Positions 20,473 through 35,399 of a DNA stretch of 48,170 bases are shown piece by piece (position 1 is the stretch's first letter; the number at the start of each line of letters is the position of its first letter). Below the pieces are notes generated by a model, which saw nothing but the letters and a program-made list of their open reading frames with translations, was not told where the DNA came from and ran no database searches. Made by a program: the position numbers and the translations under genes. Location: NCBI GenBank assembly GCA_903856295.1, contig CAIOBP010000128.1, positions 1 to 48,170 on the forward strand. The letters run 5' to 3'. This DNA comes from an uncultured Rhodospirillales bacterium. Its GTDB lineage: Bacteria > Pseudomonadota > Alphaproteobacteria > Azospirillales > Azospirillaceae.

Positions 20473-20563
20473 CGCCCTGCCCTCCCGTCTGACCACCGGG
20501 CCATGGTAGAGCCGACCGGCTCCGGTCTTCAATGCCGGCATGGAGGTCCGCACGGGCTGGCAG

Positions 20564-20590
20564 TTGCGCCCGGCGTCCCCAGGGTATAAT
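20564..20590 (+). promoter_or_regulatory. Candidate promoter of the EAL-like gene
   Basis: TTGCGC (20564-20569), 15 bases, then perfect TATAAT (20585-20590), about 75 bases before the ATG at 20667. The spacing is shorter than optimal. The 20473-20666 gap separates divergent genes and shows nothing else. Confidence 0.4.
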
Positions 20591-20666
20591 CTTGCTGTCG
20601 CCAAGCAAACCGGCCTGCGGTCGCCGCCGGCCCCGGCACAGAATGTGCCCTCGGGGGTAGACAGAC

Positions 20667-21878: not shown

Positions 21879-22333
21879 GCAAACCCGCCGCCGTCCGGAC
21901 CGCCCTTGCCCTCGCGCTGTTTGTGGCCACGAGCGCCGCCCCGTCCGCGGACGGCGCCCGGGCGCAGCTCTTCGACCCCTACATCATCGGCATGATGGCC
22001 GGGCCGGTCAGCGACGGCCCGTCGGTGCTGCTGCTGAAGAAGCGCGAAGACAAGTTCATGAGCGGCGATACCCTGATCATCGCGTGCAGCGCCGGGGCGG
22101 CTTCCGGCGTGGTCGCCCACAGCCTGCCCGCCCTGGCCGCCCTCGCCACGGGCATCGGCGCGCCGCTGGGCGCCACCGCGCTGCTCGGGACCGGCCTCTT
22201 CGGCTGCGTGATCGGCGCCGGGGCCGGCGCCACCGCCATCGGCACCCAATGGCTGCTCAATCTGCGCCGCCGGGTCTTCTTGGGGGCCGCCCCGGCCGCT
22301 CAGCCCCCGGAGCGCGCCCCGGCCGGGCCATAG
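21875..22333 (+). CDS. Small secreted/membrane hypothetical protein
   Basis: Product of 152 residues. It has a signal peptide (about 1-30, 'TALALALFVATSAAPSADGA') and a hydrophobic, glycine/alanine-rich region from about 68 to 130 that could form two helices ('GVVAHSLPALAALATGIGAPLGATALL', split by glycines, and 'GCVIGAGAGATAIGTQWLL'). It ends in a short basic then proline-rich tail. The start overlaps the EAL-like gene by four bases, so the two are coupled. The last 34 bases overlap the end of the opposite lipoprotein gene. A protein of similar design is encoded at 31011-31391. Function unknown. Confidence 0.7.
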   Translation: MSKPAAVRTALALALFVATSAAPSADGARAQLFDPYIIGMMAGPVSDGPSVLLLKKREDKFMSGDTLIIACSAGAASGVVAHSLPALAALATGIGAPLGATALLGTGLFGCVIGAGAGATAIGTQWLLNLRRRVFLGAAPAAQPPERAPAGP

Positions 22334-22707
22334 ACCGGCGCGGTATAGGCCGGCACCGTCACCACCGGCGGCGTCACCGGAAAGAACGACCACGGCGCCG
22401 GAGGAGCGGTGCCGCCACCCGGCGGCGCCCCCAGACCGGTGAGCTGACCGAGCGGCATCCCCGGCGTCGGAGCCTGGGGCGGCGGAATCGTCACCGCGAC
22501 ATAGGGGGAAAGCCCCCGGCCGCCGCCACGCCCCTCGCCGCTGGCGAAAGGCGGTGCCGGTGCCGGCCGGACATAGGCCACCGGATTGGGCGCGACCTTG
22601 GCCGAGGCCGGATATTCGCAGCCGCCCAGCCCGCCCGTCGCCAAGACCAGCGCCAGCAGCCGCTTCAAGCAAGGCAGCCGCTTCAAGCAAGAAGGAGTAT
22701 CGGTCAA
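22300..22707 (-). CDS. Small proline/glycine-rich lipoprotein (TTG start)
   Basis: Product of 135 residues. The start is a TTG at 22707 with GGGAGGG eight bases upstream, overlapping the stop of the preceding gene (TTGA). A lipoprotein signal peptide is seen, ending in the lipobox-like 'GGLGGC' near residue 30. The mature part is low-complexity, rich in P, G and A, with no recognisable domain. The n-region contains a perfect 18-bp tandem duplication (22656-22691) that repeats CLKRL. It is co-transcribed with the gene upstream; both products are probably outer-membrane or periplasmic lipoproteins. Confidence 0.6.
   Translation of the reverse strand: MTDTPSCLKRLPCLKRLLALVLATGGLGGCEYPASAKVAPNPVAYVRPAPAPPFASGEGRGGGRGLSPYVAVTIPPPQAPTPGMPLGQLTGLGAPPGGGTAPPAPWSFFPVTPPVVTVPAYTAPVYGPAGARSGG
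22656..22691. repeat. 18-bp perfect tandem duplication inside a signal-peptide coding region
   Basis: GCAGCCGCTTCAAGCAAG occurs twice, at 22656-22673 and 22674-22691. It keeps the frame and doubles the basic n-region of the lipoprotein signal peptide. Confidence 0.95.
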
Positions 22708-23237
22708 TGGTCGGGCCCTCCCGGTTCATGGGGCCGGTCGCTGAACGACGGCTCCGACTTGGATGGCGCGGGCGGCGCCGGCGGCTCGGGCGGCTTCGGC
22801 CTCGGCGCGGTGATGATGCCCGAGGAGTGGACCACCCGCGGCATCACGGTGACCCGCTGCACCGGCTGTTCGATCACCGAGGAGTACCAGCGGTTGGTGC
22901 GGCTGCCCATGCTGGCGAGCTGCCCGGCCCGCGAGAAGAACAAATGAATGGTATCGACCATCTCGGCGCGGGTGGTGCCGTTGGGAAACCGGGTCTCGGC
23001 TTGAATCACCGGGATGGGGTAGGAATAAACCAGCTCGTAGGTCTGGGTCAGCATGTCGAATCGCGGTCCGATCGCCGGCCAGCCGAGCATCGCCACCACG
23101 TCGTCCTGATGAACGCCGAGGGAAAAGATGTAGGCCGGCTCGATGGTCACGTGTTCGCCACGTTCGGAGGCGGGCACGCACCCGGCCAGCACCGGAGCCA
23201 GCAGCGCCATCAACCCGATCAGCCGTCGCATCGCCAT
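22704..23237 (-). CDS. BamE/SmpA-like lipoprotein (fold inferred)
   Basis: Product of 177 residues from the ATG at 23237 (GGGAGC upstream). The signal peptide MAMRRLIGLMALLAPVLAGC ends in a clear lipobox (LAGC). The following 'YIFSLGVHQDDVVAMLGWPA' resembles the 'G.s..eV..llG.P' turn of the BamE/SmpA fold, and 'ELVYSYPIPVIQAETRFPNG' the next strands. The C-terminal 35 residues are proline-rich. It precedes the small lipoprotein gene with a 4-base overlap. It is probably a periplasmic or outer-membrane lipoprotein, but not the housekeeping BamE itself. Confidence 0.65.
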   Translation of the reverse strand: MAMRRLIGLMALLAPVLAGCVPASERGEHVTIEPAYIFSLGVHQDDVVAMLGWPAIGPRFDMLTQTYELVYSYPIPVIQAETRFPNGTTRAEMVDTIHLFFSRAGQLASMGSRTNRWYSSVIEQPVQRVTVMPRVVHSSGIITAPRPKPPEPPAPPAPSKSEPSFSDRPHEPGGPDH

Positions 23238-23310
23238 CGCACGTGCTCCCATCAGCGCCAGTGTTCCGCTCTGCCCGATGGCCATTCAAGAATCGCGCCA
23301 CCTTCACCAC

Positions 23311-23354
23311 AGAGCGGCTTCACGCTGCGGGATGCCCCCTTCGCGACCCGCTCT
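23311..23354. repeat. 44-bp imperfect palindromic element, copy 2
   Basis: Inverted ends AGAGCGG (23311-23317) and CCGCTCT (23348-23354), interior TTCACGCTGCG shared with copy 1 at 13851-13909. Its right arm runs into the stop codon of gpsA (TAG on the minus strand at 23353-23355), so it forms the gene's 3' end. Confidence 0.65.
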
Positions 23355-24357
23355 ATTCGCCCCGGAACGGCCGGGCGAGCAATCCCTCGATGACCTCGCC
23401 GATCTGCGCGCCCCGGTTCAGGATGGCATCGACCGCGGCGCAGATCGGCATATCGACTCCGATCCGCTCGGCCAGCGCCACCACCGCCGCGGCGCTGTGA
23501 ACCCCTTCGGCGACGGTCTGGCGCTCGCCGAGAATATCAGCCAGCGGCCGGCCCTCGCCCAGCGCCACCCCCAGGGAATTGTTGCGCGATTGCCGGCTGG
23601 TGCAGGTGAGGGTCAGATCGCCCAGCCCCGAAAGGCCCATCAGGGTCTCGGCCCGGCCGCCCAGCGCCACCCCGAGCCGCACCATCTCGGCCAGACCGCG
23701 GGTGATCAGGGCGGCGCGGGCATTGTCGCCGAAGCGCCGCCCCTCGACCACGCCGCAGGCGATGGCCAGCACGTTCTTGACCGCGCCGCCGATCTGGGCG
23801 CCGACGGTGTCGTCGGAGAGATAGGGCCGGAACATCCGCCCGCCCAGCGCCGCGACCAGCCGCCCGCCGAGCGCGGTGTCGGCACAAGCCAGCGTCACCG
23901 CCGTCGGCAGCCCCTGCGCCACCTCCGCCGCGAAGGTCGGCCCCGAGAGCACGGCCAGCGGCGCGTCGGGCAGCACCGCGCCCACGACCTCGCTCATCAA
24001 GGCCGAGGTCCCGAGTTCGATGCCCTTGGCGCAAATCACCAGCGGCGTGCCGGCGGCGAGAAACGGCGCCAGCGCCCGCCCGACCGCCTGGAGATGCTGG
24101 GCCGGCGCCACCAGCAGCACGGCGTCGGTCCCGGCCACCTCCGCCAGCCGGCCGGTGGCGCGGATGGCCGGATCCAGCGGCACGCCGGCCAGAAACCGGC
24201 AGTTCTCATGCCGCTGATTGACGGTGTCCACGACGTCGGACTCGCGCGCCCACAGCACCACCGGCCGGCCGGCCCGCGCCGCCGCCTGCGCCAAGGCGGT
24301 GCCCCAAGCACCGCCGCCGACCACCCCGACCCGCCCGATCTCCGTCGAAACCACCAC
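23353..24357 (-). CDS. gpsA: Glycerol-3-phosphate dehydrogenase [NAD(P)+]
   Basis: Reduces dihydroxyacetone phosphate to sn-glycerol-3-phosphate for phospholipid synthesis; cytoplasmic. From the GTG at 24357 (GGGGGG six bases upstream) it has 334 residues. The Rossmann loop 'VGVVGGGAWGTALAQAAARA' is at the N-terminus. Family marks follow: 'LSGPTFAAEVAQGLPTAV', 'GGAVKNVLAIACGVVEG' (catalytic lysine) and 'GLSGLGDLTLTCTSRQSRN'. A second in-frame GTG directly follows the first. It is divergent from the lysR gene. Confidence 0.96.
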   Translation of the reverse strand: MVVSTEIGRVGVVGGGAWGTALAQAAARAGRPVVLWARESDVVDTVNQRHENCRFLAGVPLDPAIRATGRLAEVAGTDAVLLVAPAQHLQAVGRALAPFLAAGTPLVICAKGIELGTSALMSEVVGAVLPDAPLAVLSGPTFAAEVAQGLPTAVTLACADTALGGRLVAALGGRMFRPYLSDDTVGAQIGGAVKNVLAIACGVVEGRRFGDNARAALITRGLAEMVRLGVALGGRAETLMGLSGLGDLTLTCTSRQSRNNSLGVALGEGRPLADILGERQTVAEGVHSAAAVVALAERIGVDMPICAAVDAILNRGAQIGEVIEGLLARPFRGE

Positions 24358-24531
24358 CGTCCGCCCCCCTGCCACACCACGCGATCGGCCAGTCTCGCAA
24401 ACCCCGCGAACGGAGACAAGGGGCACTCCGTCACAATCCCCCGATGAGCCCTGTGCTTTCCTGTTGCCCTGCGGTATATTCTTGATCAAACTGCAAATCC
24501 GCCAAACTGAGACTTCGAGAACGAGGACGCG

Positions 24532-25422
24532 ATGGACTGGGACAAACTGCGGGTCTTCCACGCGGTGGCCGAAGCGGGAAGCTTCACCCACGCCGGCGAA
24601 TCCCTCAACCTCAGCCAATCGGCGGTCAGCCGCCAGATCAGCGCCCTTGAGGAGAGCCTGAGCGTGCCGCTCTTCCACCGGCACGCCCGCGGCCTGATCC
24701 TGACCGAGCAGGGTGAACTGCTGTTCCGCACCGCCCGCGACGTCTTCGCCAAGCTGTCGATGACCGAGGCCATGCTCTCGGACAGCCGCGAACAGCCCAA
24801 GGGACCGCTGAAGGTCACCACCACCGTCGCCTTCGGCACCACGTGGCTGGCGCCGCGCATCCGCGAGTTCCTGGAACTCTATCCCGACATCCAGCTGACC
24901 CTGCTGGTCGACGACAACGAACTGGATCTGGCCATGCGCGAGGCCGACATCGCCATCCGCATGAACACCCCGCGCCAGCCCGACCTGATCCAGCGCCACC
25001 TGATGACCCTGCGCTTCCACGTCTTCGCGCACATCAACTACCTCAAGCGGCGCGGCACGCCCAAAACCGCCGCCGAACTGGACCAGCACGACATCATCAC
25101 CTTCACCGACGACAACCGGCCGCTGATCACCGGCATCAACCTGCTGATGGAATCCGGCAGCGGCGGCCAGACGGCACGCAAGCCGGTGCTGCGGGTCAAC
25201 AACATGCACGCGATCTTCCGCGCCGTCGAAAGCGGCCTCGGCATCGCCGTGCTGCCCGACTACATGGTCGAGGGCCTGCCGGAAATCGTCAAGATTCTGC
25301 CCGAGGTCGAAACGCCCAAACTTGAGTCGTTCTTCGTCTATGCCGAGGAACTCCGCCAATCCAAACGCATCGCCGTCTTCCGCGACTTCCTGGTGCGCAA
25401 GGTCGCGGAGTCGGTGTTCTGA
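24532..25422 (+). CDS. LysR-family transcriptional regulator
   Basis: DNA-binding regulator of 296 residues. The winged helix-turn-helix (about 1-60) reads 'MDWDKLRVFHAVAEAGSFTH' and 'LSQSAVSRQISALEESLSV'. The C-terminal LysR substrate-binding domain (about 90-290) has the standard opening 'GPLKVTTTVAFGTTWLAPRI'. It is divergent from gpsA and 29 bases upstream of a hemerythrin gene, with which it may be co-transcribed. The ligand is unknown. TATATT at 24475-24480 could be part of its promoter. Confidence 0.93.
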   Translation: MDWDKLRVFHAVAEAGSFTHAGESLNLSQSAVSRQISALEESLSVPLFHRHARGLILTEQGELLFRTARDVFAKLSMTEAMLSDSREQPKGPLKVTTTVAFGTTWLAPRIREFLELYPDIQLTLLVDDNELDLAMREADIAIRMNTPRQPDLIQRHLMTLRFHVFAHINYLKRRGTPKTAAELDQHDIITFTDDNRPLITGINLLMESGSGGQTARKPVLRVNNMHAIFRAVESGLGIAVLPDYMVEGLPEIVKILPEVETPKLESFFVYAEELRQSKRIAVFRDFLVRKVAESVF

Positions 25423-25451
25423 TCACCTCTGCTCATTGAAGAAACCCGCAC

Positions 25452-25910
25452 ATGATCGAATGGCGCGATACGATGGAAATTGGCGTCTCGGCAATCGATG
25501 CCGAGCACAGACATTTAATCGAATTCGCCAATCTGGTTGCAAGACTGCCTAAAGGCCGCAGCCAGCGGCTTGCCACGATGAATTTGTTGTCCGATCTGCG
25601 CGAACTCTTCCGCCAGCATTTCGAGCAGGAAGAGGATTTGATGTTCCGGGTTGAATATCCGAAGGTCGACAAGCATCTGCTGATGCATTGCACGATGATG
25701 ACCCAGTTCGATATGTGCCTGCAAAACTCCGAGCACGACAGTTCCGTGCTGGACACGCTGGCGCTGGTAACCGACTGGATCGTCAACCATATCAAAACCG
25801 AGGATACCAGCCTGGCATCCTTCATCTTTCAAAGGCGGCAGGCCGTGGCCCTGGCGAAGGCCAAGACCAAGCCCAAAGCCGCCCCCAAACAGGTCGCCGG
25901 CAAGCGATAG
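25452..25910 (+). CDS. Bacteriohemerythrin-like protein
   Basis: Oxygen-binding or oxygen-sensing di-iron four-helix bundle, 152 residues, cytoplasmic. The iron ligands are visible: 'SAIDAEHRHLIEF' (helix A histidine), 'FRQHFEQEEDLM' (H and E), 'HLLMHCTMM' (HxxxH) and 'NHIKTEDTSL' (HxxxxD type). The C-terminus is a lysine/alanine tail (KAKTKPKAAPKQVAGKR). Its codon use is noticeably less GC-rich than the neighbours. It follows the LysR gene by 29 bases, which suggests joint expression. Such proteins in related bacteria bind or deliver O2. Confidence 0.88.
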   Translation: MIEWRDTMEIGVSAIDAEHRHLIEFANLVARLPKGRSQRLATMNLLSDLRELFRQHFEQEEDLMFRVEYPKVDKHLLMHCTMMTQFDMCLQNSEHDSSVLDTLALVTDWIVNHIKTEDTSLASFIFQRRQAVALAKAKTKPKAAPKQVAGKR

Positions 25911-25933
25911 CCCCCCACCGCCGGACGCGGCGG

Positions 25934-26275
25934 CTACTTGACGACCGTGACCTTGTAGAATTCGTCGGCGTCGCCCATCACATTGCCCTCGCCGTCGACG
26001 GCCTTGCTCTTCCGGACCCGGACGCTGACCTTGACGCCGACGAATTGCGCTGGCATCGCCTGATGTTCGGCCCAGGGGCGGCAAATATCGCTGGCGCACA
26101 GGGCGGAATGCTCCGCGCCCTTGGCGTCCTTGATCGTCAGCCAGCAATTGTCGCCGCAGTCGAAGCGCTGAATCCGTCCGTCCAGCGACGCGTCGGCGGT
26201 CCCGGCGAAGGCGGCCGCCTGCATGACCAGCGGCAGAACCAACCCGGCGACCCCGAGCCTGACAAGGCTTCCCAT
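25934..26275 (-). CDS. Secreted hypothetical protein with two cysteine pairs
   Basis: Product of 113 residues from the ATG at 26275; an in-frame ATG at 26296 is also possible. The signal peptide is 'MGSLVRLGVAGLVLPLVMQA' with cleavage likely after AFAG or nearby. The mature part has four cysteines, in 'RFDCGDNCWLTIKD' and 'SALCASDICRPW', suited to two disulfides, and a strand-rich C-terminal half ('FVGVKVSVRVRKS', 'FYKVTVVK') that would fit a small OB-like fold. No family is recognised. It converges on the hemerythrin gene. Confidence 0.6.
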   Translation of the reverse strand: MGSLVRLGVAGLVLPLVMQAAAFAGTADASLDGRIQRFDCGDNCWLTIKDAKGAEHSALCASDICRPWAEHQAMPAQFVGVKVSVRVRKSKAVDGEGNVMGDADEFYKVTVVK

Positions 26276-26382
26276 ATCCTGTGCTCCCGTCCGCATGCCG
26301 GCGCTCCCGGCCAGTGGCATAACTCCACAAGCGGGCGCGCAAACCAACAAGTTTTATGGCCTTTCCCGACCAACCGCCCGCC

Positions 26383-26410
26383 TTGACAACACGGTGGCGT
26401 CCTTTAAGAT
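26383..26410 (+). promoter_or_regulatory. Sigma-70-type promoter of the response regulator operon
   Basis: TTGACA (26383-26388, perfect consensus), 16 bases, TAAGAT (26405-26410). It lies 64 bases before the ATG at 26474. A CtrA-type box follows at once, so the expected start point would be inside or just after that box. Confidence 0.6.
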
Positions 26411-26426
26411 GTTAAGCGGATGTTAA
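26411..26426. promoter_or_regulatory. CtrA-type box (TTAA-N7-TTAAC)
   Basis: GTTAAGCGGATGTTAA on the plus strand, which is TTAACATCCGCTTAAC on the minus strand: a perfect match to the known CtrA consensus TTAA-N7-TTAAC. It directly follows the -10 element of the promoter at 26383-26410. A third TTAA lies at 26404-26407. Placement over the start point would suit repression, or activation of another start site. Confidence 0.6.
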
Positions 26427-26473
26427 TGGAGCGGGGCCGTCGGCGCCCCGTATTTGGTGTCGAGGACAGGACG

Positions 26474-26851
26474 ATGAATGGCGACGAGACTTTTCTGATC
26501 GTCGACGACGCGCGGCTCGCGCGCAAGATGGTGCGATCATTTGTGGCCAAGGCGCGTCCCGACCTCACGATCTTCGAGGCGGGGGATGGCGAGGAGGCGC
26601 TGAAGGTTTTGAGTGGAATCAAGGAGCTTCATTACGCCACCATCGACTACAACATGCCCGGCATGAACGGCATCGACCTTGCGAAGATCGTCAAGGAGCG
26701 CTGCCCGACGGCCCGGATCGCCCTGCTGACCGCCAATGTCCAGGCGCCCCTGCGCAAGCGGGCGGCCGACATCGCGGTCGGCTTCATCGACAAGCCGATC
26801 AACGAGGCCAAGATCGCCGCCTTCGTCACCCAGACGGCCACGATCCCATGA
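26474..26851 (+). CDS. Single-domain response regulator (CheY-like)
   Basis: Receiver-only protein of 125 residues. The ATG at 26474 has GAGGACAGG upstream; earlier in-frame codons precede the ribosome-binding site. Acidic pocket 'LIVDDARLA' (D11, D12), phospho-acceptor D58 in 'TIDYNMPGMNG', switch threonine in 'ALLTANV' and lysine in 'FIDKPIN' (about K107) are all intact, so it should be phosphorylated. It has no output domain. Its stop overlaps the cheC start (ATGA). Likely the phosphate carrier or sink between the kinase and CheC encoded next. Confidence 0.92.
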   Translation: MNGDETFLIVDDARLARKMVRSFVAKARPDLTIFEAGDGEEALKVLSGIKELHYATIDYNMPGMNGIDLAKIVKERCPTARIALLTANVQAPLRKRAADIAVGFIDKPINEAKIAAFVTQTATIP

Positions 26852-27477
26852 GCGGCGTCTTCCACCTGCGCCCCGAGGTCCGCGACGCGCTGACCGAGAT
26901 TTTCAACATCGGAATCGGCCATGCCGCCGGCGTCCTCAGCGAACTGGTCAACGATGAAATCCTGCTGACCGTTCCGGAACTCGGCCTGACCCGGCACACC
27001 GACTTCGCCGCCATCGCCGGCAAGCTGTGGCACGAGCCGGCGAGCATCGTCCGCCAGTCCTTTCAGGGGCCGTTCCGGGGCGATGCGCTACTGATCTTTC
27101 CCGCCCGCGAGAGCCTGGAGCTGGTGCGGATTCTGCTGGCCGAGCCGACACCCATCGAGTCGATGACCGAGCTGGAGCGGGAAGCCCTGCTCGAGGTCGG
27201 CAACATCATCCTCAATGCCTGCCTGTCCTGCATCGCCGATCTGCTGGAACAGGAAATCACCAACGCCCTGCCGCTGTATCTCGAATCGGATCCCGGCAGC
27301 CTGGTCAATTCGCTGATCGCCGACCCCGACTGGTATGTGATCTTCATCCGCATCGATTTCACGGTCAAACGTCACAACATGCGCGGCAACATCCTGTTCG
27401 TGCTCGACGTTCCGGCGGCGGACGCCTTCAGCGCGGCGGTGGAAAAGCTGGTGGATCATTTCGAGTCGGAGCCATGA
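26848..27477 (+). CDS. CheC-type phosphatase of response regulators
   Basis: Product of 209 residues, the normal length for CheC. Both family active-site copies with the E-x-x-N pattern are present: 'LTEIFNIGIGHAAGVLSELV' (E17, N20) and 'REALLEVGNIILNACLSCIA' (E116, N119). CheC proteins dephosphorylate CheY-P. Here the CheY partner is presumably the receiver protein encoded just upstream, which overlaps by four bases; the kinase gene downstream overlaps likewise. No methyl-accepting protein, CheA or CheW gene is nearby, so this looks like a CheC used outside a classical chemotaxis cluster. Confidence 0.85.
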   Translation: MSGVFHLRPEVRDALTEIFNIGIGHAAGVLSELVNDEILLTVPELGLTRHTDFAAIAGKLWHEPASIVRQSFQGPFRGDALLIFPARESLELVRILLAEPTPIESMTELEREALLEVGNIILNACLSCIADLLEQEITNALPLYLESDPGSLVNSLIADPDWYVIFIRIDFTVKRHNMRGNILFVLDVPAADAFSAAVEKLVDHFESEP

Positions 27478-29150
27478 CCTCACTGCCGCCTCCGGCCGGC
27501 ACGTCCAAAGGCGGGATCGGCGCTTGGTTGCTGGCGGGGGTCGACCTCGCCGACAATGGCATCGTCGTTCTCGACCGGAGCGGCGCCGTGGTGTGCTGGA
27601 ACGCCTGGATGGTCCGGCACTCGGGGGTTCCGGCCGTGCGGGCCGTGGGGCGGACGCCGCGGGAGCTGTTCGGCGACTCGCTGGCGCTGCGGGTGGTCAA
27701 GGCGATTGAGGATTGTCTGGCCAACTGCCGCGCCCACATCCTCTCGCACTCCCTCAACCGCCGGCCGTTTCCGCTGGTCGCGCTGGAGGAAACGCCGGGC
27801 GCGGGCGGCGGCGGCGGCATCGACCAGAGCGTCACCCTCAAGCCGATTTCCGGCGTCAATGGCGAGCGGCATTGCCTGATCCAGATCAGCGACGTCACCT
27901 CGGCCACCCGGCGCGAACGCTTCCTGCGCCAGCAGACCAACGAGCTGTCGCGCGCCGTCGAGGAGTTGCAGACCGCCAAAGACCTCGCCACCCGCGCCAA
28001 CGTCGCCAAGTCGGAATTCCTCACCGACATGAGCCACGAACTGCGCTCACCGCTCAACGCCATCATCGGCTTTTCACAATTGCTGGAGCGGGATCAGGTC
28101 GGCAAACTGGCGGAAGAGCAGCACGAGTTCGTCACCTACATCCACAAGGCCGGCGACCATCTGCTGAAGATGATCACCGACATCCTCGATCTGTCCAAGA
28201 TCGAGGCCAAGCGCCTGACCCTGGGCACCGAGGAAATCGATGCCGAGCGCTTCGTGCTCGACGCCATCAAGGGCGTGCGCGGCCTCTCCCATGCCCGGTC
28301 GATCTCGGTGCGCCACGAGCCCGGTGAACAGCGCGGCCTGAGCATCCGGGCCGATCGCACCCGGCTGGCCCAAATCGTGATGAACCTGCTGTCCAACGCC
28401 ATCAAATACAACCGCGCCAAGGGCAGCGTCACGGTCGGGCTGGAAACGCCGGCGCCGGGCTGGGTGCGGGTCTCGGTGGCCGACACCGGCCCGGGCATTC
28501 CCCTGGAGCGCCAGGGCGAGCTGTTCCAGAGCTTCAACCGCCTGGGCGCCGAGTTCGGCGAAATCGAGGGCGCCGGCATCGGCCTTGCCCTGTCGCGCAA
28601 GCTCGCCGAGCTGATGGGCGGCGTCGTCGGTTTTCGCAGCCGGCCCAACGAAGGCTCGGTGTTCTGGGTCGACATGCCCGGCGCCGGGGAGACGCTCGGC
28701 GATTCCGACGCTCCGGGTGAGGAGGAGGCCAGTTCCGCCCTGCCGGTGCTGCCGCCGCTCTCGATTCTCTATGTCGAAGATAACCCGGTGGATTTGCGGC
28801 TGGTCGAGGCGCTGTTCGCCCCCATGCCGGCGGTGCGGCTGCTCACCGCCCGCAATGGCGAGGAGGGGGTGCGGCTGGCCCGCGAGCGCCGGCCCGACAT
28901 CATCCTGATGGACATCTTCCTGCCCGGCTTCAACGGCTTCGAGGTGTTCGCCCGCCTGCGGGCCGACGAGAGGACCCGGAGCATTCCGGTGCTGGCGCTC
29001 AGCGCCTCGGCCCTGCCCGCCGACATGGCGCGCGGACTGGCCGCCGGGTTTCATAAATGGCTGACCAAACCCCTGGATATCGCCGAACTGCTGACCGCGC
29101 TCGCGCATCTGGTCAAGACCTGCCCCCCCGTCCCGCCCAAGGACCGCTGA
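27474..29150 (+). CDS. Hybrid sensor histidine kinase (PAS-HisKA-HATPase-REC)
   Basis: Cytoplasmic kinase of 558 residues without membrane segments. A PAS-like sensor (about 18-142, 'GIVVLDRSGAVVCWNAWM') is followed by a coiled coil, the H-box 'DMSHELRSPLNAIIGFSQ' (H188), the N-box 'NLLSNAIKYN', G1 'VADTGPGIPLE' and G2 'GAGIGLALS'. The C-terminal receiver (about 428-545) has 'LYVEDNPVD', phospho-acceptor D480 in 'ILMDIFLPG' and 'LTKPLD'. The ATG at 27474 overlaps the cheC stop, and its own stop overlaps the ccmC start. The signal is unknown; the PAS domain may sense redox state or a cofactor, by inference only. Confidence 0.93.
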   Translation: MTSLPPPAGTSKGGIGAWLLAGVDLADNGIVVLDRSGAVVCWNAWMVRHSGVPAVRAVGRTPRELFGDSLALRVVKAIEDCLANCRAHILSHSLNRRPFPLVALEETPGAGGGGGIDQSVTLKPISGVNGERHCLIQISDVTSATRRERFLRQQTNELSRAVEELQTAKDLATRANVAKSEFLTDMSHELRSPLNAIIGFSQLLERDQVGKLAEEQHEFVTYIHKAGDHLLKMITDILDLSKIEAKRLTLGTEEIDAERFVLDAIKGVRGLSHARSISVRHEPGEQRGLSIRADRTRLAQIVMNLLSNAIKYNRAKGSVTVGLETPAPGWVRVSVADTGPGIPLERQGELFQSFNRLGAEFGEIEGAGIGLALSRKLAELMGGVVGFRSRPNEGSVFWVDMPGAGETLGDSDAPGEEEASSALPVLPPLSILYVEDNPVDLRLVEALFAPMPAVRLLTARNGEEGVRLARERRPDIILMDIFLPGFNGFEVFARLRADERTRSIPVLALSASALPADMARGLAAGFHKWLTKPLDIAELLTALAHLVKTCPPVPPKDR

Positions 29151-29869
29151 TGGACCGCTTCGCGAACCCCACCCGTTTTTTGCGTCTGGCGAGCGCCATC
29201 ATGCCCTGGAGCGCCGGCCTGACCGTGCTCTCGCTCGGGGCCGGCTTCGTGCTGGCGCTGCTGGTGTCGCCGCCCGATTATCAGCAGGGCGAAGCGGTGC
29301 GCATCATGTATGTCCACGTGCCGGCGGCCTGGATGGCCATGTTCGTCTACGGCAACATGGCCCTGGCCGCCGTGTCCGGGCTGGTGTGGAAGCATCCGCT
29401 GGCCGATCTGTTTTCCCGGGCGGCGGCGCCGGTCGGGGCCGGCTTCACCGCCGTCTGCCTGATCACCGGCAGCCTGTGGGGCGCGCCGATGTGGGGCACC
29501 TGGTGGGTGTGGGATGCCCGGCTGACCAGCGTGCTGATCCTGTTTTTCCTTTACCTCGGCTACATCGCCCTGGTGAACGCCTTCGACGATCCCAATCGCG
29601 GCAGCGCCGCGGGCAACGTGCTGCTGCTGGTCGGCGCGGTCAATATTCCGGTCATCAAATTCTCGGTCGACTGGTGGAACACCCTGCATCAGCCGGCCAG
29701 CGTCGTCCGGCTCGGCGGCCCGGCACTCGCCGGCTCGATGCTCTGGCCGCTGCTGGTGATGGCGCTCGGCTTCACCGCCTATTTCGTCACCGTGGTGCTG
29801 CTGCGGCTGCGCAGCGAAATTCTCGGACGCAAGATCCAGTCGATCCGCTTTTCCGAGCCGCCGGTCTGA
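29150..29869 (+). CDS. ccmC: Heme exporter / heme-handling protein CcmC
   Basis: Inner-membrane protein of cytochrome c maturation system I that presents heme to CcmE; 239 residues with six transmembrane helices. The tryptophan-rich WWD motif is 'GAPMWGTWWVWDARLTS' (about 114-130). The flanking heme-ligand histidines are in 'MYVHVPAAWMAM' (about 62) and 'WWNTLHQPASV' (about 181). Its ATG overlaps the kinase stop by one base, so it is translationally coupled to it. The usual partners ccmA, ccmB, ccmD and ccmE are not adjacent; the 220 bases after it hold no gene. Confidence 0.95.
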   Translation: MDRFANPTRFLRLASAIMPWSAGLTVLSLGAGFVLALLVSPPDYQQGEAVRIMYVHVPAAWMAMFVYGNMALAAVSGLVWKHPLADLFSRAAAPVGAGFTAVCLITGSLWGAPMWGTWWVWDARLTSVLILFFLYLGYIALVNAFDDPNRGSAAGNVLLLVGAVNIPVIKFSVDWWNTLHQPASVVRLGGPALAGSMLWPLLVMALGFTAYFVTVVLLRLRSEILGRKIQSIRFSEPPV

Positions 29870-29957
29870 CCCGGATAACGCACCGGCACAATTTTCAGCG
29901 CGAAATCGACCGACCGGCAGAATTTGCCGGGTCCCCATACGGATAACTACGGAGCCC

Positions 29958-29991
29958 TCGTGGAATCACATGGGTATTTCGTGGAATCACA
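29958..29991. repeat. Two 13-bp direct repeats, 21-bp period
   Basis: TCGTGGAATCACA at 29958-29970 and 29979-29991. The 21-bp period equals two turns of the DNA helix, as expected of tandem regulator sites. They lie 100-133 bases upstream of the EF-hand gene. The rest of the 29870-30090 gap shows no gene. Confidence 0.6.
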
Positions 29992-30090
29992 AAGGCCTGT
30001 CCGGCCCGGCGTCTGGCTTGTCTCTTGCTGAGAGCGAGGTGGAGGACTTTCACACCAAGTCCTCGCAATCCCTCCAGCAGGAGACAGCGC

Positions 30091-30945
30091 ATGAGTTATT
30101 CGTCCGGCATCTCGGGAGGATCGAACCTCTACGAGATGCTCAGATATCGGCAGGCCATGGCCGGTCAGCAAGCCAGCGCCGCCAGCGGGCAACCGCCCTG
30201 GGCCAATTTCAGCCAAGGGGCGTCGACCACCGCCTCGTCCCTGACCTCGGCCTCCCAGACTGCGGCCGCGCAGACCGCGGCGAGCACCACCAGCCAGAGC
30301 GGCACTCAGAGCGGAGCGGCAACCGCCAAGCCCGGCTCCGGCGCCTCCCTGACCAGCCAGCTGTCCAACCTGCTCATGGAGTTCCAGCAGGTGCTCGGTC
30401 AGATGGGGCAAGACCCCAACGGTCAGGACGGCGCCACCGGCTCGGGCATCGGCGCAACCTCGACCGATGCCGCCAGCGACACCAGCCAAACGACGGCGGC
30501 CCAAACGGCGGCGGCCCAGACCGCTCCGACGCAGCCCCGCCATCGTCACCACCACCACCAATCCGACTCCCAGTCCACCGCCGCCACCGACGGCAGCGGC
30601 TCGAATCCGCCGCCAGCCGACCCGGCGGAACAGTTGCTCGGAACCACCGCCAGCACCAGCGACGGCACGATCACCCAATCGGCTTTCGAACAAGCCTTCG
30701 CCAACGGTGCCGACACCAGCGGGGCGGATAAAATCTTCGCCAAGCTCGACAAGAATGGCGACGGGACCATCGACCAATCAGAGGCGCAGAATGCCCTCAA
30801 GCAGCTTCACCAGCCGCGGAACGCGGCGGGAATGCAGTCGCCGTCCGGCACCCGGACTGGCGGCCAGGGTAATTCGTCTCAAGGGGGCTGGCTAAGCGGC
30901 TCCAACCTGCTGTTCTCGGCCCAGCAAATGGGTCAGGCGGCTTGA
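30091..30945 (+). CDS. EF-hand calcium-binding protein, low-complexity
   Basis: Product of 284 residues from the ATG at 30091 (GGAGA upstream). One canonical EF-hand loop is seen, DKNGDGTIDQSE (about 220-231), preceded by a degenerate one, 'STSDGTITQSAFEQ'. The first 140 residues are rich in S, T, Q, A and G with almost no hydrophobic core, followed by a histidine cluster (PRHRHHHHQSD, about 150) that could bind metal. There is no obvious signal peptide. Similar proteins are known as XopAW-like EF-hand proteins. Expression is isolated: the gene has its own upstream repeats and a strong downstream hairpin. Confidence 0.8.
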   Translation: MSYSSGISGGSNLYEMLRYRQAMAGQQASAASGQPPWANFSQGASTTASSLTSASQTAAAQTAASTTSQSGTQSGAATAKPGSGASLTSQLSNLLMEFQQVLGQMGQDPNGQDGATGSGIGATSTDAASDTSQTTAAQTAAAQTAPTQPRHRHHHHQSDSQSTAATDGSGSNPPPADPAEQLLGTTASTSDGTITQSAFEQAFANGADTSGADKIFAKLDKNGDGTIDQSEAQNALKQLHQPRNAAGMQSPSGTRTGGQGNSSQGGWLSGSNLLFSAQQMGQAA

Positions 30946-30959
30946 TCCGGTCTTCGTCG

Positions 30960-30997
30960 CGGCGGCCGGGGGCGCAGAATGCCGCCCCCGGCCGCCG
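30960..30997. terminator. Bidirectional hairpin terminator
   Basis: CGGCGGCCGGGGGCG (30960-30974) pairs perfectly with CGCCCCCGGCCGCCG (30983-30997): 15-bp stem, 8-base loop, followed by TTATA on the plus strand. It separates the convergent genes at 30091-30945 and 31011-31391. Confidence 0.75.
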
Positions 30998-31010
30998 TTA
31001 TACCTGGGCC

Positions 31011-31391
31011 TCAGTGCCTGAGCGAACCGTTCATCAGCATGGCGTTGGTCTGGCCGTCGAACGGGCTGGGCGGCGGCGGCATGGGCAGCATGGACATCAG
31101 GTTCTGCCCGACATAACTGCTGATCACACCGATGCCGCAGCCGTAGATCGCCTCGTGCAGCAGCGCGAAGGTGGTCATGGTGGTCAACGCCACCGTCACC
31201 GGCTTCAAAACACCGGTGGCCGCGGCCGCCGAAAACAGGACGCCGCTGACCGTGCAGTCCATCACGATCTGTTCGGGGGTGAGCGGCGGCACCTGGACGC
31301 TCTGGGCCGCCTGTCTCTGGCCCGCGCAGGCTTGTCCAGCCGTCATCGCCAGCACCACCACCACACCAAACGCGGTCACGAGCCGTCTCAT
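31011..31391 (-). CDS. Small secreted/membrane hypothetical protein
   Basis: Product of 126 residues with a signal peptide (MRRLVTAFGVVVVLAMTAGQ, then ACA-G cleavage site). The mature part has a hydrophobic stretch 'SGVLFSAAAATGVLKPVTVA' and a second 'ALLHEAIYGCGIGVISSYVG', ending in a methionine/proline-rich tail. The layout (signal peptide, 'xxIVMDCxxxG', hydrophobic region, 'GCxIG') is like that of the protein at 21875-22333, suggesting a distant shared family. Function unknown. It reads away from the long AT-rich gap. Confidence 0.65.
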   Translation of the reverse strand: MRRLVTAFGVVVVLAMTAGQACAGQRQAAQSVQVPPLTPEQIVMDCTVSGVLFSAAAATGVLKPVTVALTTMTTFALLHEAIYGCGIGVISSYVGQNLMSMLPMPPPPSPFDGQTNAMLMNGSLRH

Positions 31392-31758
31392 GCTTCAAGC
31401 CTCACCCGGAAAAACAGACGGACAGCGCCTAACGCACCGTCCGACGCCTCGCACCATAGCTGATTTCGCAGCCACGAAAAAGGGGGGTTCCACCGCCACC
31501 GGCCAGCCCGGCCGCGCTCCCTGGAAGTCTTAAAAAAATTAAGGACTTCCCACGCCGCACCCGCCGCGCCCGGCCGTCCGGAGCGCCGCGGAATTAAGAT
31601 AAAATATGAGAAATGCAAGCTAACTTACTGTGATTTCACGGTCACAGCGAGCGGGCGCCCGGCGCAGGGTGCGACAATTTGTCTTGCCCCCCACCGGCGC
31701 TGTGTTAACGTTGGCTTAACGAACTGAGCAACACCGAACCAAACACCAGGAGGGTACC
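31392..31758. other. AT-rich intergenic region with hairpins
   Basis: No gene is visible. It holds an imperfect hairpin at 31523-31550 (GGAAGTCTTAA / TTAAGGACTTCC with one bulged base and an A-rich loop), an inverted repeat CTGTGA-N8-TCACAG at 31628-31647, and a CtrA-type box at 31704-31720. The stretch 31525-31640 is much lower in GC than the rest of the window. It carries the control signals of the divergent genes on each side. Confidence 0.7.
31704..31720. promoter_or_regulatory. CtrA-type box (TTAA-N7-TTAAC, palindromic)
   Basis: GTTAACGTTGGCTTAAC reads TTAA-N7-TTAAC on both strands, the full CtrA consensus. It ends 38 bases before the ATG of the 56-residue gene at 31759 and shares TTAACnnnnGCTTAAC with the box at 26411-26426. 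Confidence 0.65.
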
Positions 31759-31929
31759 ATGTCCATCTTCGAACTTTCAGACGACGCGGTCCGCGCTGAA
31801 GTCTATCGCCGGGCGATCCGGGCCCGCCGCAACGGCGCCTCTTCCTGGCAGCAATGCCTGAACGGCGCCTCCGATATGGTCCAGGTGGAAATGGGCATCT
31901 GGCTGATGGCCCCCGGTGCCGCACGGTAA
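31759..31929 (+). CDS. 56-residue hypothetical protein behind a CtrA-type box
   Basis: A short gene with an excellent ribosome-binding site (AGGAGGGTACC before the ATG). The product starts MSIFELSDDAVRAEVYRRAI and is basic in its first half (RRAIRARRNG), with a possible second helix 'SDMVQVEMGIWLMA'. It is not a recognised family. GC content and codon use are normal. The strong initiation signal and the CtrA-type box just upstream argue that it is real. It could be a small regulator or membrane-associated peptide; nothing proves either. Confidence 0.6.
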   Translation: MSIFELSDDAVRAEVYRRAIRARRNGASSWQQCLNGASDMVQVEMGIWLMAPGAAR

Positions 31930-32106
31930 CCGGCCCGCCGAAACCGGCGGCCACCATCTCGGGGCGGGAGCGCGATGACGTTCCCGCCCCGATTGCGTTG
32001 CGGGCTCCGATTGCGCTGCGGGTACCTCCCCCGGCTTGCGCCGCCCGCCCGCCCCGGCCTATAAGAAGGGCCAGCGGGTTCCATCTATCCAGGGGGCGAA
32101 CGGGCC

Positions 32107-33093
32107 ATGATCGTGGTTACCGGCGGGGCCGGGTTCATCGGCTCCAATCTGGTCGCGGGGCTGGAGCGGCGGGGCGAAACCTCGATCGCCGTCTGCGACC
32201 GCTTCGGCACCGACGACAAGTGGCGCAATCTGGCCAAACGCGAGTTGCGGGCGCTGGTGCCGCCCGAGCGCCTGTTCGAATTTCTCGACACCAACGCCGG
32301 CAAGATCGAGATGATCTACCATCTCGGCGCCATCTCGGCGACCACCGAGCGCGATGTCGACCTGATCGTCGAAACCAACTTCAATCTTTCGGTGTCGCTC
32401 TGGCAGTGGTGCGCCCGGCGGAGCATCCGGTTCGTCTACGCCTCCTCGGCCGCGACCTACGGCGACGGCGCCCAGGGCTTCGACGATGACGGCGCGCTCG
32501 CCCACCTCGCCACCTTGCGCCCGCTCAACCCCTATGGCTGGAGCAAGCACGCCTTCGACCGCTTCGTCGCCCGCTCGCTGACCGGCGGCGAACGCACGCC
32601 GCCCCAGTGGGCCGGGCTGAAATTCTTCAACGTTTACGGCCCCAACGAGTATCACAAGGGCGACATGGCCTCGGTGATCTCGAAGCTCCACCCCCGGATC
32701 GTCGCCGGCGAACCGGCGCGGCTGTTCAAGTCCCACCGCCCCGACTATGCCGACGGCGGCCAGAGCCGCGATTTCATCTGGGTCGGCGACTGCGTGTCGG
32801 TGATGCTGTGGCTGGGCAGCCAGCCCAGGGTCAGCGGCCTGTTCAATGTCGGCACCGGGGTCGCCCGCAGCTTCAAGGATCTGGCGCTGGCCACCTTCGC
32901 CGCCGCCGGGATCGAGGCGAAGCTGGACTATTTCGACATGCCCGAGGGGCTGCGCGACCGCTACCAGTACTTCACCCAGGCGCACATGGACCGGCTGCGC
33001 AACGCCGGCTACACCGCGCCGTTCACCTCCCTCGAGGAGGGCGTCAGGGCCTACGTCCAGGGCCATCTCGGCACCCCCGACCCTTATCTCTAA
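32107..33093 (+). CDS. hldD: ADP-L-glycero-D-manno-heptose-6-epimerase
   Basis: Last step of ADP-heptose synthesis for the inner core of lipopolysaccharide; cytoplasmic short-chain dehydrogenase fold, 328 residues. The NAD(P)-binding loop is 'MIVVTGGAGFIGSNLVAGLE', and the catalytic parts are 'FVYASSAATYGDG' and 'NPYGWSKHAFD' (Tyr-x3-Lys). 'FKSHRPDYADGGQSRDFIWV' is characteristic of HldD, distinguishing it from UDP-sugar epimerases. It lies 11 bases before lgt, with which it forms an operon. Confidence 0.95.
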   Translation: MIVVTGGAGFIGSNLVAGLERRGETSIAVCDRFGTDDKWRNLAKRELRALVPPERLFEFLDTNAGKIEMIYHLGAISATTERDVDLIVETNFNLSVSLWQWCARRSIRFVYASSAATYGDGAQGFDDDGALAHLATLRPLNPYGWSKHAFDRFVARSLTGGERTPPQWAGLKFFNVYGPNEYHKGDMASVISKLHPRIVAGEPARLFKSHRPDYADGGQSRDFIWVGDCVSVMLWLGSQPRVSGLFNVGTGVARSFKDLALATFAAAGIEAKLDYFDMPEGLRDRYQYFTQAHMDRLRNAGYTAPFTSLEEGVRAYVQGHLGTPDPYL

Positions 33094-33104
33094 GGCCGCT
33101 CCCG

Positions 33105-33911
33105 ATGTTTTATGTCCTGCCCTTCCCCGGTATCGATCCGGTGGCCCTGGCCGTCGGGCCGCTGGTGATCCGTTGGTACGCCCTGGCCTATCTCGCCGGC
33201 TTGCTGCTCGGCATCCGCTATGCCATGGCCATGGCCAAGCGCAATCCCGGGCCGCCCCAGCCCGCCGATTACGACGACTTCCTGGTCTGGGCGGTGCTGG
33301 GCGTGGTGCTGGGCGGCCGCACCGGCTACGTGCTGTTCTACCAGTTCGATCTCTACCTCAGCGACCCCACGGAAATCTTCAAACTCTGGCACGGCGGCAT
33401 GTCGTTCCATGGCGGCTTTCTCGGTGTCGTCCTGGCCGGCATTCTGTTTTCGCGGGCGCGGGGCTTCTCGCCGCTGGCCTTCGGCGACCTGATCGCCTGC
33501 TGCGCGCCGATCGGCCTGTTTTTCGGCCGCATCGCCAACTTCATCAATGGCGAGTTGTATGGCCGGGTCAGCGACGCCTATTTCACCATGGTCTTTCCGC
33601 GCGGCGGGCCGCTGCCCCGCCACCCGAGCCAGCTTTACGAAGCGGCGCTCGAGGGGCTGGTGCTCGGCCTGACGCTGCATGTTTTGTGGCGAATGCCCGG
33701 CGTGCGCGGCAAGCCGGGAACGCTGCTCGGGGCCTTCTTCATCGGCTACGGGCTGGCCCGCAGCATCGTCGAGCTGTTCCGCGAGCCCGACGCCCAGCTC
33801 GGCTTCCTGATCGGCGGCTTCACCATGGGCCAGTTGCTCTCCCTGCCGATGATCGCCATCGGCGCCGGCCTGATTCTCTACGCCCGCCGCACGGCCCAGA
33901 CGGCACCGTGA
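33105..33911 (+). CDS. lgt: Prolipoprotein diacylglyceryl transferase
   Basis: Inner-membrane enzyme that attaches diacylglycerol to the lipobox cysteine of prelipoproteins; 268 residues and about seven transmembrane helices. The Lgt signature is 'FGRIANFINGELYGR' (about 141-155), with 'HGGMSFHGGFLGV' before it (active-site histidine) and 'RHPSQLYEAALEGL' after. Its stop overlaps the midA start (GTGA). It would process the lipoproteins encoded in this window (LptE, DUF3576 and the two at 22.3-23.2 kb). Confidence 0.97.
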   Translation: MFYVLPFPGIDPVALAVGPLVIRWYALAYLAGLLLGIRYAMAMAKRNPGPPQPADYDDFLVWAVLGVVLGGRTGYVLFYQFDLYLSDPTEIFKLWHGGMSFHGGFLGVVLAGILFSRARGFSPLAFGDLIACCAPIGLFFGRIANFINGELYGRVSDAYFTMVFPRGGPLPRHPSQLYEAALEGLVLGLTLHVLWRMPGVRGKPGTLLGAFFIGYGLARSIVELFREPDAQLGFLIGGFTMGQLLSLPMIAIGAGLILYARRTAQTAP

Positions 33912-35032
33912 CGCCGCTGTTCCGCCATCTCGCGCGGCGCATCCAGCATCAGGGGCCGCTCACCGTCGCCGACTTCATGGCCGAGGCGCTGGGCAACCCC
34001 AAACACGGCTATTACATGACCGCCGACCGCTTCGGCGCCGCCGGCGATTTCGTCACCGCTCCGGAAATCAGCCAGATGTTCGGCGAGCTGATCGGGCTGT
34101 GGTGCGCCGATTGCTGGGACCGGCTCGGCCGTCCGGCGCCGTTCGCCCTGGTCGAACTCGGCCCCGGACGCGGCACCCTGATGGCCGACGCCCTGCGCGC
34201 GATGTCGGGGCTCCTGCCGGACTTCACCGCCGCCGCCCGCCTCCATCTGGTCGAGACCAGCCCGGTGCTGCGCCGCCGCCAGCACGAGGCGCTGACCCGC
34301 TGGCAGCCGCTCTGGCACGATCATCTCGCCGGGGTGCCCGAAGGGCTGCCGCTGCTGCTGGTGGCCAACGAGTTCTTCGACGCCCTGCCGGTGCGCCAGT
34401 TCCAGCTGACCGAACAGGGCTGGGCCGAGCGCATGGTCGGCCTCGCGCCCGATGGCAAGGCGCTGCGGTTCGCCCTCGGCAGCCCCGGCGGCCTGACCTC
34501 CCTGATGCTGCCGCCGCGCCTGCGGGCCGCCGCCATCGCCCCCGGCACGGTGATCGACCTCGCCGCCGCCGGCCAGTCGGTCGCCCTGGAGCTGGGACGG
34601 CGCCTGAAAGCCGATCGCGGCGCGGCACTGATCATCGATTATGGCCACACCGCCCTGGTGCCCACCGACACCCTCCAGGCGGTGCGGCGCCACAAGCCAG
34701 TGCCGGTGCTCGACAATCCGGGCGAGGCCGACCTGACCACCCACGTCGATTTCACCGCCCTCGCCGAAGCCGCCCGGCGCGGCGGCGCCCTGGCCCACGG
34801 CCCGGTGGGCCAGGGCGACCTGCTGCGCGCCCTCGGCATCGAAACCCGCGCCGCCACCCTGCGCCGTGCCGCCACCCCCGAACAGTCCCAGGATATCGAC
34901 GCCGCCCTCAACCGTCTGACCACCCCCGAGGACATGGGCACCCTGTTCAAAGCCCTGGCGATGACCGGGCCGGACGGGCCGGTGCCGGCGGGATTCGCCG
35001 ACACGCGAGACTCGCCGTCCAACGCCAAGTGA
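33908..35032 (+). CDS. MidA/NDUFAF7-family SAM-dependent methyltransferase
   Basis: Product of 374 residues starting at the GTG at 33908, which overlaps the lgt stop. Opening signature 'GPLTVADFMAEALGNPKHGY' and 'GDFVTAPEISQMFGELIGLW' are typical, then the SAM-binding loop 'ALVELGPGRGTLMADAL' (about 80-96), 'VANEFFDALPVRQF' and 'DYGHTAL'. The mitochondrial homologue NDUFAF7 dimethylates an arginine of the complex I subunit equivalent to NuoD; whether this bacterial protein does so is inference, though interesting given the nuo operon in the same window. The lgt-midA-pgeF order is common in this bacterial group. Confidence 0.92.
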   Translation: MTPLFRHLARRIQHQGPLTVADFMAEALGNPKHGYYMTADRFGAAGDFVTAPEISQMFGELIGLWCADCWDRLGRPAPFALVELGPGRGTLMADALRAMSGLLPDFTAAARLHLVETSPVLRRRQHEALTRWQPLWHDHLAGVPEGLPLLLVANEFFDALPVRQFQLTEQGWAERMVGLAPDGKALRFALGSPGGLTSLMLPPRLRAAAIAPGTVIDLAAAGQSVALELGRRLKADRGAALIIDYGHTALVPTDTLQAVRRHKPVPVLDNPGEADLTTHVDFTALAEAARRGGALAHGPVGQGDLLRALGIETRAATLRRAATPEQSQDIDAALNRLTTPEDMGTLFKALAMTGPDGPVPAGFADTRDSPSNAK

Positions 35033-35066
35033 GCTATGATCGGTGCGCGAGGACGCAGGAGCGATC

Positions 35067-35399
35067 ATGAACAGCGAAACCGACGCGCGGCTCGGGCGGA
35101 TGGAACAGGACATCGCCGAGCTCAAAGGCTCCGTCGCCGAGCTCAGGGGCTCCGTCGCCGAGATCAAGGGTACAGTCTCCGACATCAAGGGCACCCTGGC
35201 CCAGATGATGCCGCTGTTGATTCGGCTCGCCGAAGGGCAAGCGCGGGTTGAAGGGCGCGTCGCCCACCAGCCTCGCCCACCAGCCTCGTCCTGCGGATTT
35301 TTACGAGCTGCGCGGCCGGGTCGAGGAGATCAGCCGGCTCCTGCCGACCGCCCACGCCTATCAGCAACCGCCCCAGCGCCAGAGCTGATCGCCCCGTGA
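35067..35399 (+). pseudogene. Coiled-coil protein gene frameshifted by a 13-bp tandem duplication
   Basis: The ATG at 35067 opens a coiled-coil protein with four near-identical heptad-like units (IAELKGSVAELRGSVAEIKG..., about residues 12-45) followed by 'LLIRLAEGQARVEGRVAHQP'. The frame as read runs to 35399 (110 residues) with an R/P/A-rich tail of a type usual for out-of-frame GC-rich DNA. Removing one copy of the 13-bp repeat at 35262-35287 restores a tail 'ADFYELRGRVEEISRLLP' that continues the coiled coil and stops at 35388, giving 102 residues and a clean 7-base gap before pgeF. The gene may therefore be broken or the assembly may be wrong here. Confidence 0.75.
35262..35287. repeat. 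Perfect 13-bp tandem duplication
   Basis: GCCCACCAGCCTC at 35262-35274 and 35275-35287. Because 13 is not a multiple of three, it shifts the frame of the coiled-coil gene. Confidence 0.97.

Follow-up and report, generated by a model that had tools for sequence, protein, structure and literature searches.

A recurrent receiver, CheC and PAS kinase module, predicted to act as a CheY-CheC switch, overlaps ccmC in an uncultured Rhodospirillales bacterium

Organization of the locus

The stretch of DNA analysed in this work (hereafter the window) comprises 48,170 nucleotides from an uncultured Rhodospirillales bacterium (GenBank assembly GCA_903856295.1, contig CAIOBP010000128.1), and its subject is a row of four overlapping genes at positions 26383-29869, coding for a CheY-like receiver, a predicted CheC-type phosphatase, a hybrid histidine kinase with an N-terminal PAS domain and the cytochrome c maturation protein CcmC. 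The first three of these genes are a real and widespread module of a known kind, whose evidence is presented below together with the position of ccmC behind it. The features of the locus are the following:

26383-26410, + strand: promoter-like site, TTGACA-16-TAAGAT, 10/12, a consensus match only
26431-26451, + strand: terminator-like site (consensus match), between the promoter-like site and the receiver gene
26474-26851, + strand: single-domain CheY-like receiver, 125 amino acids, ATG at 26474, stop at 26849-26851
26848-27477, + strand: predicted CheC-type phosphatase, 209 amino acids, ATG at 26848, stop at 27475-27477
27474-29150, + strand: hybrid histidine kinase, 558 amino acids, ATG at 27474, stop at 29148-29150
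27474-27923, + strand: N-terminal PAS-fold domain of the kinase, residues 1-150, called HKN
29150-29869, + strand: ccmC (System I cytochrome c maturation), 239 amino acids, ATG at 29150, stop at 29867-29869

All four genes of the original prediction are real: they overlap by 4, 4 and 1 bases (with junction letters ATGA, ATGA and TGATG), and the residues named there, D58 of the receiver and H188 and D480 of the kinase, were confirmed in place. The gene starts used are our own choice, and lie downstream of the starts of the mechanically called open reading frames (26420 for the receiver, 27027 for the kinase and 29057 for ccmC, the latter two inside the upstream gene). In a consensus scan of positions 26300-30150, the promoter-like site listed above was the sole match on the + strand, and none was found for ccmC within the kinase gene; both strands together gave two such sites (mean 0.5 and standard deviation 0.7 in shuffled sequences), and seven terminator-like sites were counted (mean 2.5 in shuffles). 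A lone + strand site of this type fits the single shared promoter that had been proposed, and proves nothing.

The receiver and its putative phosphatase

Receivers are in many cases inactivated by their kinase or by themselves, and dedicated phosphatases are best known from chemotaxis. The receiver of the window (Pfam Response_reg) has the features of a CheY-like protein, namely the acidic pair D11/D12, the phospho-acceptor D58, T86 and K107, without any output domain. The product of the following gene matches Pfam CheC with 34.7 bits (cut-off 22) and CheX with 27.9 bits (cut-off 27). It had been described as a CheC with both active sites, and this held: there are two ExxN sites (E17/N20 and E116/N119), whose four named residues, together with D13, are invariant across 30 aligned CheC rows. 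The ExxN motif is needed for phosphatase activity in CheX (PMC3510030). The AlphaFold2 model of the protein, with a predicted local distance difference test score (pLDDT) of 86.4, had Thermotoga maritima CheC (1xkr) as its best Foldseek match by E-value, with a template modelling (TM) score of 0.75; in a profile search, the same CheC was matched with an E-value of 9.8e-27, versus 0.0033 for CheX. Sequence and model together point to a CheC-type phosphatase, with two ExxN sites in a CheC-like fold. A CheX identity was rejected on its much weaker profile match and a FliY identity, despite a nearly equal fold match, on the size of the protein (209 amino acids) and the absence of a listed FliN domain. 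The families searched for in the window's own genome were CheC, CheW, ccmA, CheD and CheZ, and the CheC of the operon is the sole CheC match there. A role of this CheC in serving CheD was also considered and set aside, with no CheD in the operon.

Recurrence of the receiver-CheC-kinase order

CheC relatives are present in 28 of 59 related genomes, at 47 places (two being halves of one gene, and some being truncated where a contig ends). In 51 of 59 parsed CheC rows, found in Alpha- and Gammaproteobacteria, the gene immediately before CheC codes for a receiver; the 59 rows are the window, its relatives and 14 Colwellia loci, with one gene of genome G003 entered twice (L096 and L097, two contig ends) and with one of the 51 upstream receivers (second L111 row) being the end receiver of a kinase. 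In wider searches, 11 of the 289 class genomes and 107 of the 398 phylum genomes gave a CheC match. The receiver alignment (A2) includes the L111 kinase-end receiver as well as the late-start receiver of L058, and the receiver matches for L156 and L157 are probably kinase ends too. Automatic gene picking errs in high-GC DNA, and for the module it was replaced by later parsing. Taken from the sequences of these loci, the predicted receiver, CheC and kinase are a recurrent unit, kept across genera and classes. The gene order, which would have counted against the original prediction if unique to the strain, was recovered in many genomes for its first three genes, and in only one other species for all four.

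Two loci outside the class, G330:C30:23266-24628 (L185) and G484:C66 (L192), carry a tandem CheC pair with a receiver before the first copy.

Apparent association of a PAS domain with CheC

The kinase shows in Pfam a weak N-terminal PAS domain, HisKA (with H188), HATPase_c and a C-terminal Response_reg (with D480), the last three being what defines a hybrid histidine kinase. Its residues 1-150 were used as query against the 59 whole genomes, and the comparison with the CheC places was scripted. The search gave 32 matches, 27 of them with E<1e-8 (the window's own included). All 27 strong matches begin 0-100 bases after a CheC match, and the five weak ones (1e-4 to 7.6e-4) sit elsewhere; seen from the CheC side, 27 of the 47 places are followed by the domain and 20 have none at that threshold behind them. 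A profile of 31 such domains, run against the 289 class genomes, yielded eight matches with E<=2.5e-18, seven of which lie directly after CheC (positions matched by eye), the next-best match being at 3.8e-11 and followed by weak PAS matches, which at E up to 0.001 occur in at least 96 of the 289 genomes. Additionally, 25 of 27 further loci from the phylum search carry the domain behind CheC, and 12 show a receiver immediately ahead of it; these loci (L180-L206) are the best-scoring of the 107 genomes with a match, and favour close kin. Over these lines of sequence evidence, the PAS domain appears tied to CheC, a link that we did not find described in a literature search covering titles and abstract openings (outside most subscription journals).

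The distances computed for the individual proteins correlate with one another, in favour of the kinase-run switch proposed below. Over 27 loci, r is 0.87 for CheC and the PAS domain, 0.60 for CheC and the receiver and 0.52 for the receiver and the PAS domain, none of which was reached in 2000 permutations; these values partly reflect shared ancestry, and come from a set in which four Colwellia rows were kept and in which L167 and L175 are represented by downstream receivers, perhaps of a different orthologous group.

The model of the domain has a PAS fold (pLDDT 87.3), with LOV and other PAS domains as best structural matches, and the conserved residues in the alignment are G29, N43, W45, G85, P100, L101 and C134. 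The last of these (27873-27875) is a cysteine in at least 90% of the aligned PAS domains, and is a possible redox or ligand site. The eighth strong match of the class search, at G243:C1:1215319-1215729, is its only strong copy of the domain that does not follow a CheC match.

What follows the PAS domain varies. Among 34 third proteins that bear it, 30 have HATPase_c (18 with HisKA and 12 with HisKA_2), four have GGDEF and three have EAL; this set (A5) comprises six of the 14 Colwellia third genes, 25 other PAS-bearing third genes and three from plasmids, and omits two further loci with the domain, L174 and L178. In the genus members G001, G002 and G004, the third gene is of a GGDEF-EAL form, behind a CheC that is 37-38% identical to that of the window, and GGDEF motifs are present in L194, L197 and L201. 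A Phytobacter plasmid has the order receiver, CheC and diguanylate cyclase. No partner was recognised for the receiver-CheC pair at L048 and L054.

In the window itself, a gene at 20667-21878 (+) codes for a protein that matches EAL in part (38 bits, residues 237-334) and may be a degenerate phosphodiesterase of cyclic di-GMP (c-di-GMP).

This variation brings in a different way of arranging the same parts, in which the third protein is the output: the phosphorylated receiver, or CheC loaded with it, would bind the PAS domain and thereby switch the fused enzyme, which is a kinase here and GGDEF-EAL or GGDEF elsewhere, with the phosphate coming from CheA or another kinase. The PAS domain tracking CheC (27 of 27 strong matches, seven of eight in the class and 25 of 27 further loci) while the outputs differ speaks for it, as do the CheA genes near 24 of 70 loci and the analogy with Bacillus subtilis, where the coupling of CheC, CheD and phosphorylated CheY is described (PMC3513319). 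The kinase output of most PAS-bearing third proteins (HATPase_c in 30 of 34) fits equally a kinase that is the source of the phosphate; besides, the domain is absent behind 20 of the 47 CheC places at the threshold used, and neither the chemoreceptor-type third proteins nor the PAS_3 kinases of several CheA-linked loci have a recognisable copy. We regard this output arrangement as a tentative alternative, which would be the less expected outcome. A related proposal, that residues 1-150 of the kinase may derive from PAS and serve solely for docking of the CheC-receiver pair (a portable timer whose state the domain would read and pass to the fused enzyme, be it a HisKA or HisKA_2 kinase, a diguanylate cyclase or a GGDEF-EAL protein), seems to us doubtful to a similar degree.

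The phosphate donor and the chemosensory context

The original prediction saw in these genes a complete circuit with its own off-switch, independent of CheA. Neither CheA nor a receptor was found around the module of the window (positions 20001-36000 searched), and no CheA was found within 5-9 kb on each side of the modules of G013 and G011, which are the nearest kin of the window in the CheC tree (support 88/99); the stretches covered around the GGDEF-EAL group and the Colwellia loci had none either. To this extent the claim stands. It does not extend to all relatives, since the same pair occurs elsewhere with non-kinase third genes and with CheA nearby. On plasmids of Sphingobium, Novosphingobium and Rhizobium, for instance, the order is cheB-cheR-cheA, a small protein, receiver, CheC and kinase. 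This protein, some 80 residues long and encoded between the CheA and receiver genes (L169:3764-4012, L176:3742-3999, with relatives in other CheA-linked loci), gave no Pfam match for the two copies tested, from L169 and L176, and we presume it to be STAS-like from its looks.

Such clusters suggest another reading, namely that CheC acts on the CheY of one of the chemosensory systems of the cell, with the kinase as an incidental neighbour. Many Che genes in the genome and the relatives of the module within cheB-cheR-cheA clusters are in its favour. The overlapping genes and the conserved order with an own receiver argue against it, and the CheZ-like genes of the genome could serve the other systems. 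In the CheC tree, moreover, the CheA-linked rows are clustered (six label changes, versus 18.9 in shuffles) and the window is not among them; for this tree, five of the 14 Colwellia rows were kept, three rows shorter than 195 amino acids were dropped, and L172 was scored as lacking CheA, despite annotated CheW and CheB genes next to it. We consider a chemotaxis role improbable.

The reading that we favour, as a probable one, is a stand-alone CheY-CheC switch run by the PAS histidine kinase. In this predicted mechanism, the PAS domain would take in an intracellular signal, the kinase would autophosphorylate at H188 and the phosphate would pass to D58 of the receiver and/or to D480 of the kinase itself, after which CheC would hydrolyse the phosphorylated receiver, setting its lifetime. 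Since the receiver has no output domain, it would act through partner binding or as a phosphate sink. We infer the transfer between kinase and receiver. In favour of the switch are the catalytic residues and domains, the CheC identity, the receiver ahead of CheC in 51 of 59 rows, the kinase domain HATPase_c in 30 of 34 PAS-bearing third proteins, the correlated distances, the lack of CheA in the stretches covered around G013 and G011, and the DifD/DifG precedent described below.

Several observations weigh against this switch, besides the part of the distance correlations owed to ancestry. The operon has no histidine phosphotransfer (HPt) domain for a relay through D480, none being listed by Pfam in its four proteins, to which the search was confined; the name phosphorelay given in the original prediction goes beyond what the sequence shows. 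Eight of the 59 CheC rows have no receiver upstream (among them L097, which starts where its contig does, and the distant CheC paralogues L060, L062 and L063), and in the plasmid loci L167 and L175 the receiver comes after the third gene instead. Some receiver-CheC pairs have third genes that are not kinases (GGDEF-EAL, GGDEF or chemoreceptor), and a CheA gene lies nearby in 24 of 70 loci (a count of tblastn matches anywhere in loci of unequal length, 3.5-19.5 kb, with related strains included); the phosphate donor for the receiver of the window may therefore lie elsewhere. Cross-talk is possible, as the genome contains CheZ-like genes, four CheD matches over the cut-off and 25 matches to the CheW domain, 24 of which exceed the cut-off. 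The CheC of the window is a long branch (1.22) in no strongly supported set, with a warning from the tree program about the meeting of long branches. Lastly, the Foldseek TM score of the CheC model with T. maritima FliY is 0.77, slightly above that with CheC.

The position of ccmC

The fourth gene is an ordinary ccmC, with Pfam Cytochrom_C_asm and 270.5 bits to NCBIfam TIGR01191 (cut-off 186), and ccmA and ccmB are elsewhere in the genome. It is the only ccmC match of its genome, and 53 of the 59 relatives have one match each. The ccmA-ccmB pair lies on another contig (C208), with no ccmC beside it in the 14 kb covered.

The overlap of ccmC with the kinase had been taken as a possible link of the signal to heme or redox state, in other words, as a four-gene unit. 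In support of this unit are the overlaps kept in two species (TGATG and ATGA) whose flanks differ, and the conserved C134 of the PAS domain. In G003, the four genes are on two contigs sharing a 200-base end at 99%, the nucleotide matches with the window end at 26480 and 29858, and none of 17 neighbour proteins of the window was matched in the flanks (7.2 kb upstream, 4.2 kb downstream), where the receiver and CcmC were found as positive controls. The comparison of genomes goes the other way. The junction is continuous in two of the five genus genomes only (G000 and G003); in G001 and G004 just its ccmC half is matched, with ccmC located elsewhere (in G001, together with ccmE, ccmF and a DsbE-family gene), and a search of the G002 genome found no ccmC. 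The place of ccmC is also loose in general: in 12 loci of relatives, it is accompanied by ccmE and ccmF in seven, by ccmA and ccmB in four and by none of the four in another four (L116, L119, L120 and L121, from genomes of the same family, in the stretch covered, with only a 37% partial CcmA-like match in L121). The two sister species having the four genes together, with different flanks, amount to one lineage-specific event, which makes a shared transcript likely and leaves a shared function unproven.

The heme link is accordingly rejected as a general feature (59 relatives, the junction in five genus genomes and 12 ccmC loci), and a four-gene unit tied to heme or redox state is to us very unlikely. 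In this lineage, ccmC is probably on the transcript of the switch while keeping its usual role in cytochrome c maturation. Judging from gene content across these genomes, it is in the row by position, outside the recurrent module, and that position is no evidence for heme sensing by the switch. The same literature search did not find ccmC with a kinase.

Three neighbours may be recorded here. A gene for bacteriohemerythrin precedes the operon (25452-25910, +) and is unmatched in the G003 flank; a low-complexity protein, rich in Ala, Thr and Gln and with EF-hands, is encoded directly after ccmC (30091-30945, +); and putA is beside ccmC in L119.

Significance and comparison with known systems

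A widespread receiver-CheC pair on PAS kinases and c-di-GMP enzymes would mean that evolution has turned the off-switch of chemotaxis into a timer of general use, and the PAS domain that goes with CheC gives direct access to how this pair talks to its output. If the docking proposal were true, a single adaptor would bring timing of the chemotaxis kind to both kinase and c-di-GMP signalling throughout Pseudomonadota. The ccmC linkage is in turn a caution, as tight gene overlap need not imply common function.

CheC-type phosphatases outside chemotaxis were reportedly reviewed by Muff and Ordal in 2008 (Mol Microbiol 70:1054), including a class II with two active sites, and the idea of an undescribed system is not supported. 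Neither the CheC-tied PAS domain nor the ccmC tail is known from that class. A gene context without CheA, as expected of a CheC outside chemotaxis, was found at the window and at the G013 and G011 loci, and was not found at the 24 of 70 loci of relatives counted above. As to ccmC, the window copy belongs to the same TIGR01191 family as that of other System I sets, and differs in being detached from ccmAB and in overlapping a signalling gene.

Three signalling systems share some of these parts. The Che3 system of Rhodospirillum centenum (CheA3, CheS3 and one CheY) shares hybrid kinases together with CheY and an output other than chemotaxis; it is CheA-based, and the opening of the abstract mentions no CheC (PMC3868531). 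The CheC-CheD-CheY systems of Bacillus and Thermotoga share the CheC fold with both sites and the coupling of CheC to CheY (PMC3513319; 1xkr, 2f9z), whereas the operon of the window has no CheD (present elsewhere in the genome) and has a PAS kinase as neighbour. The tested precedent is the CheY/CheC pair DifD/DifG of Myxococcus, described as probably acting as a phosphate sink for the kinase DifE (PMC4671073): there, as predicted here, a single-domain CheY-like receiver is dephosphorylated by a CheC homologue, DifE being a CheA-type kinase with a methyl-accepting chemotaxis protein and CheW, whereas the kinase of the window is a PAS-HisKA hybrid.

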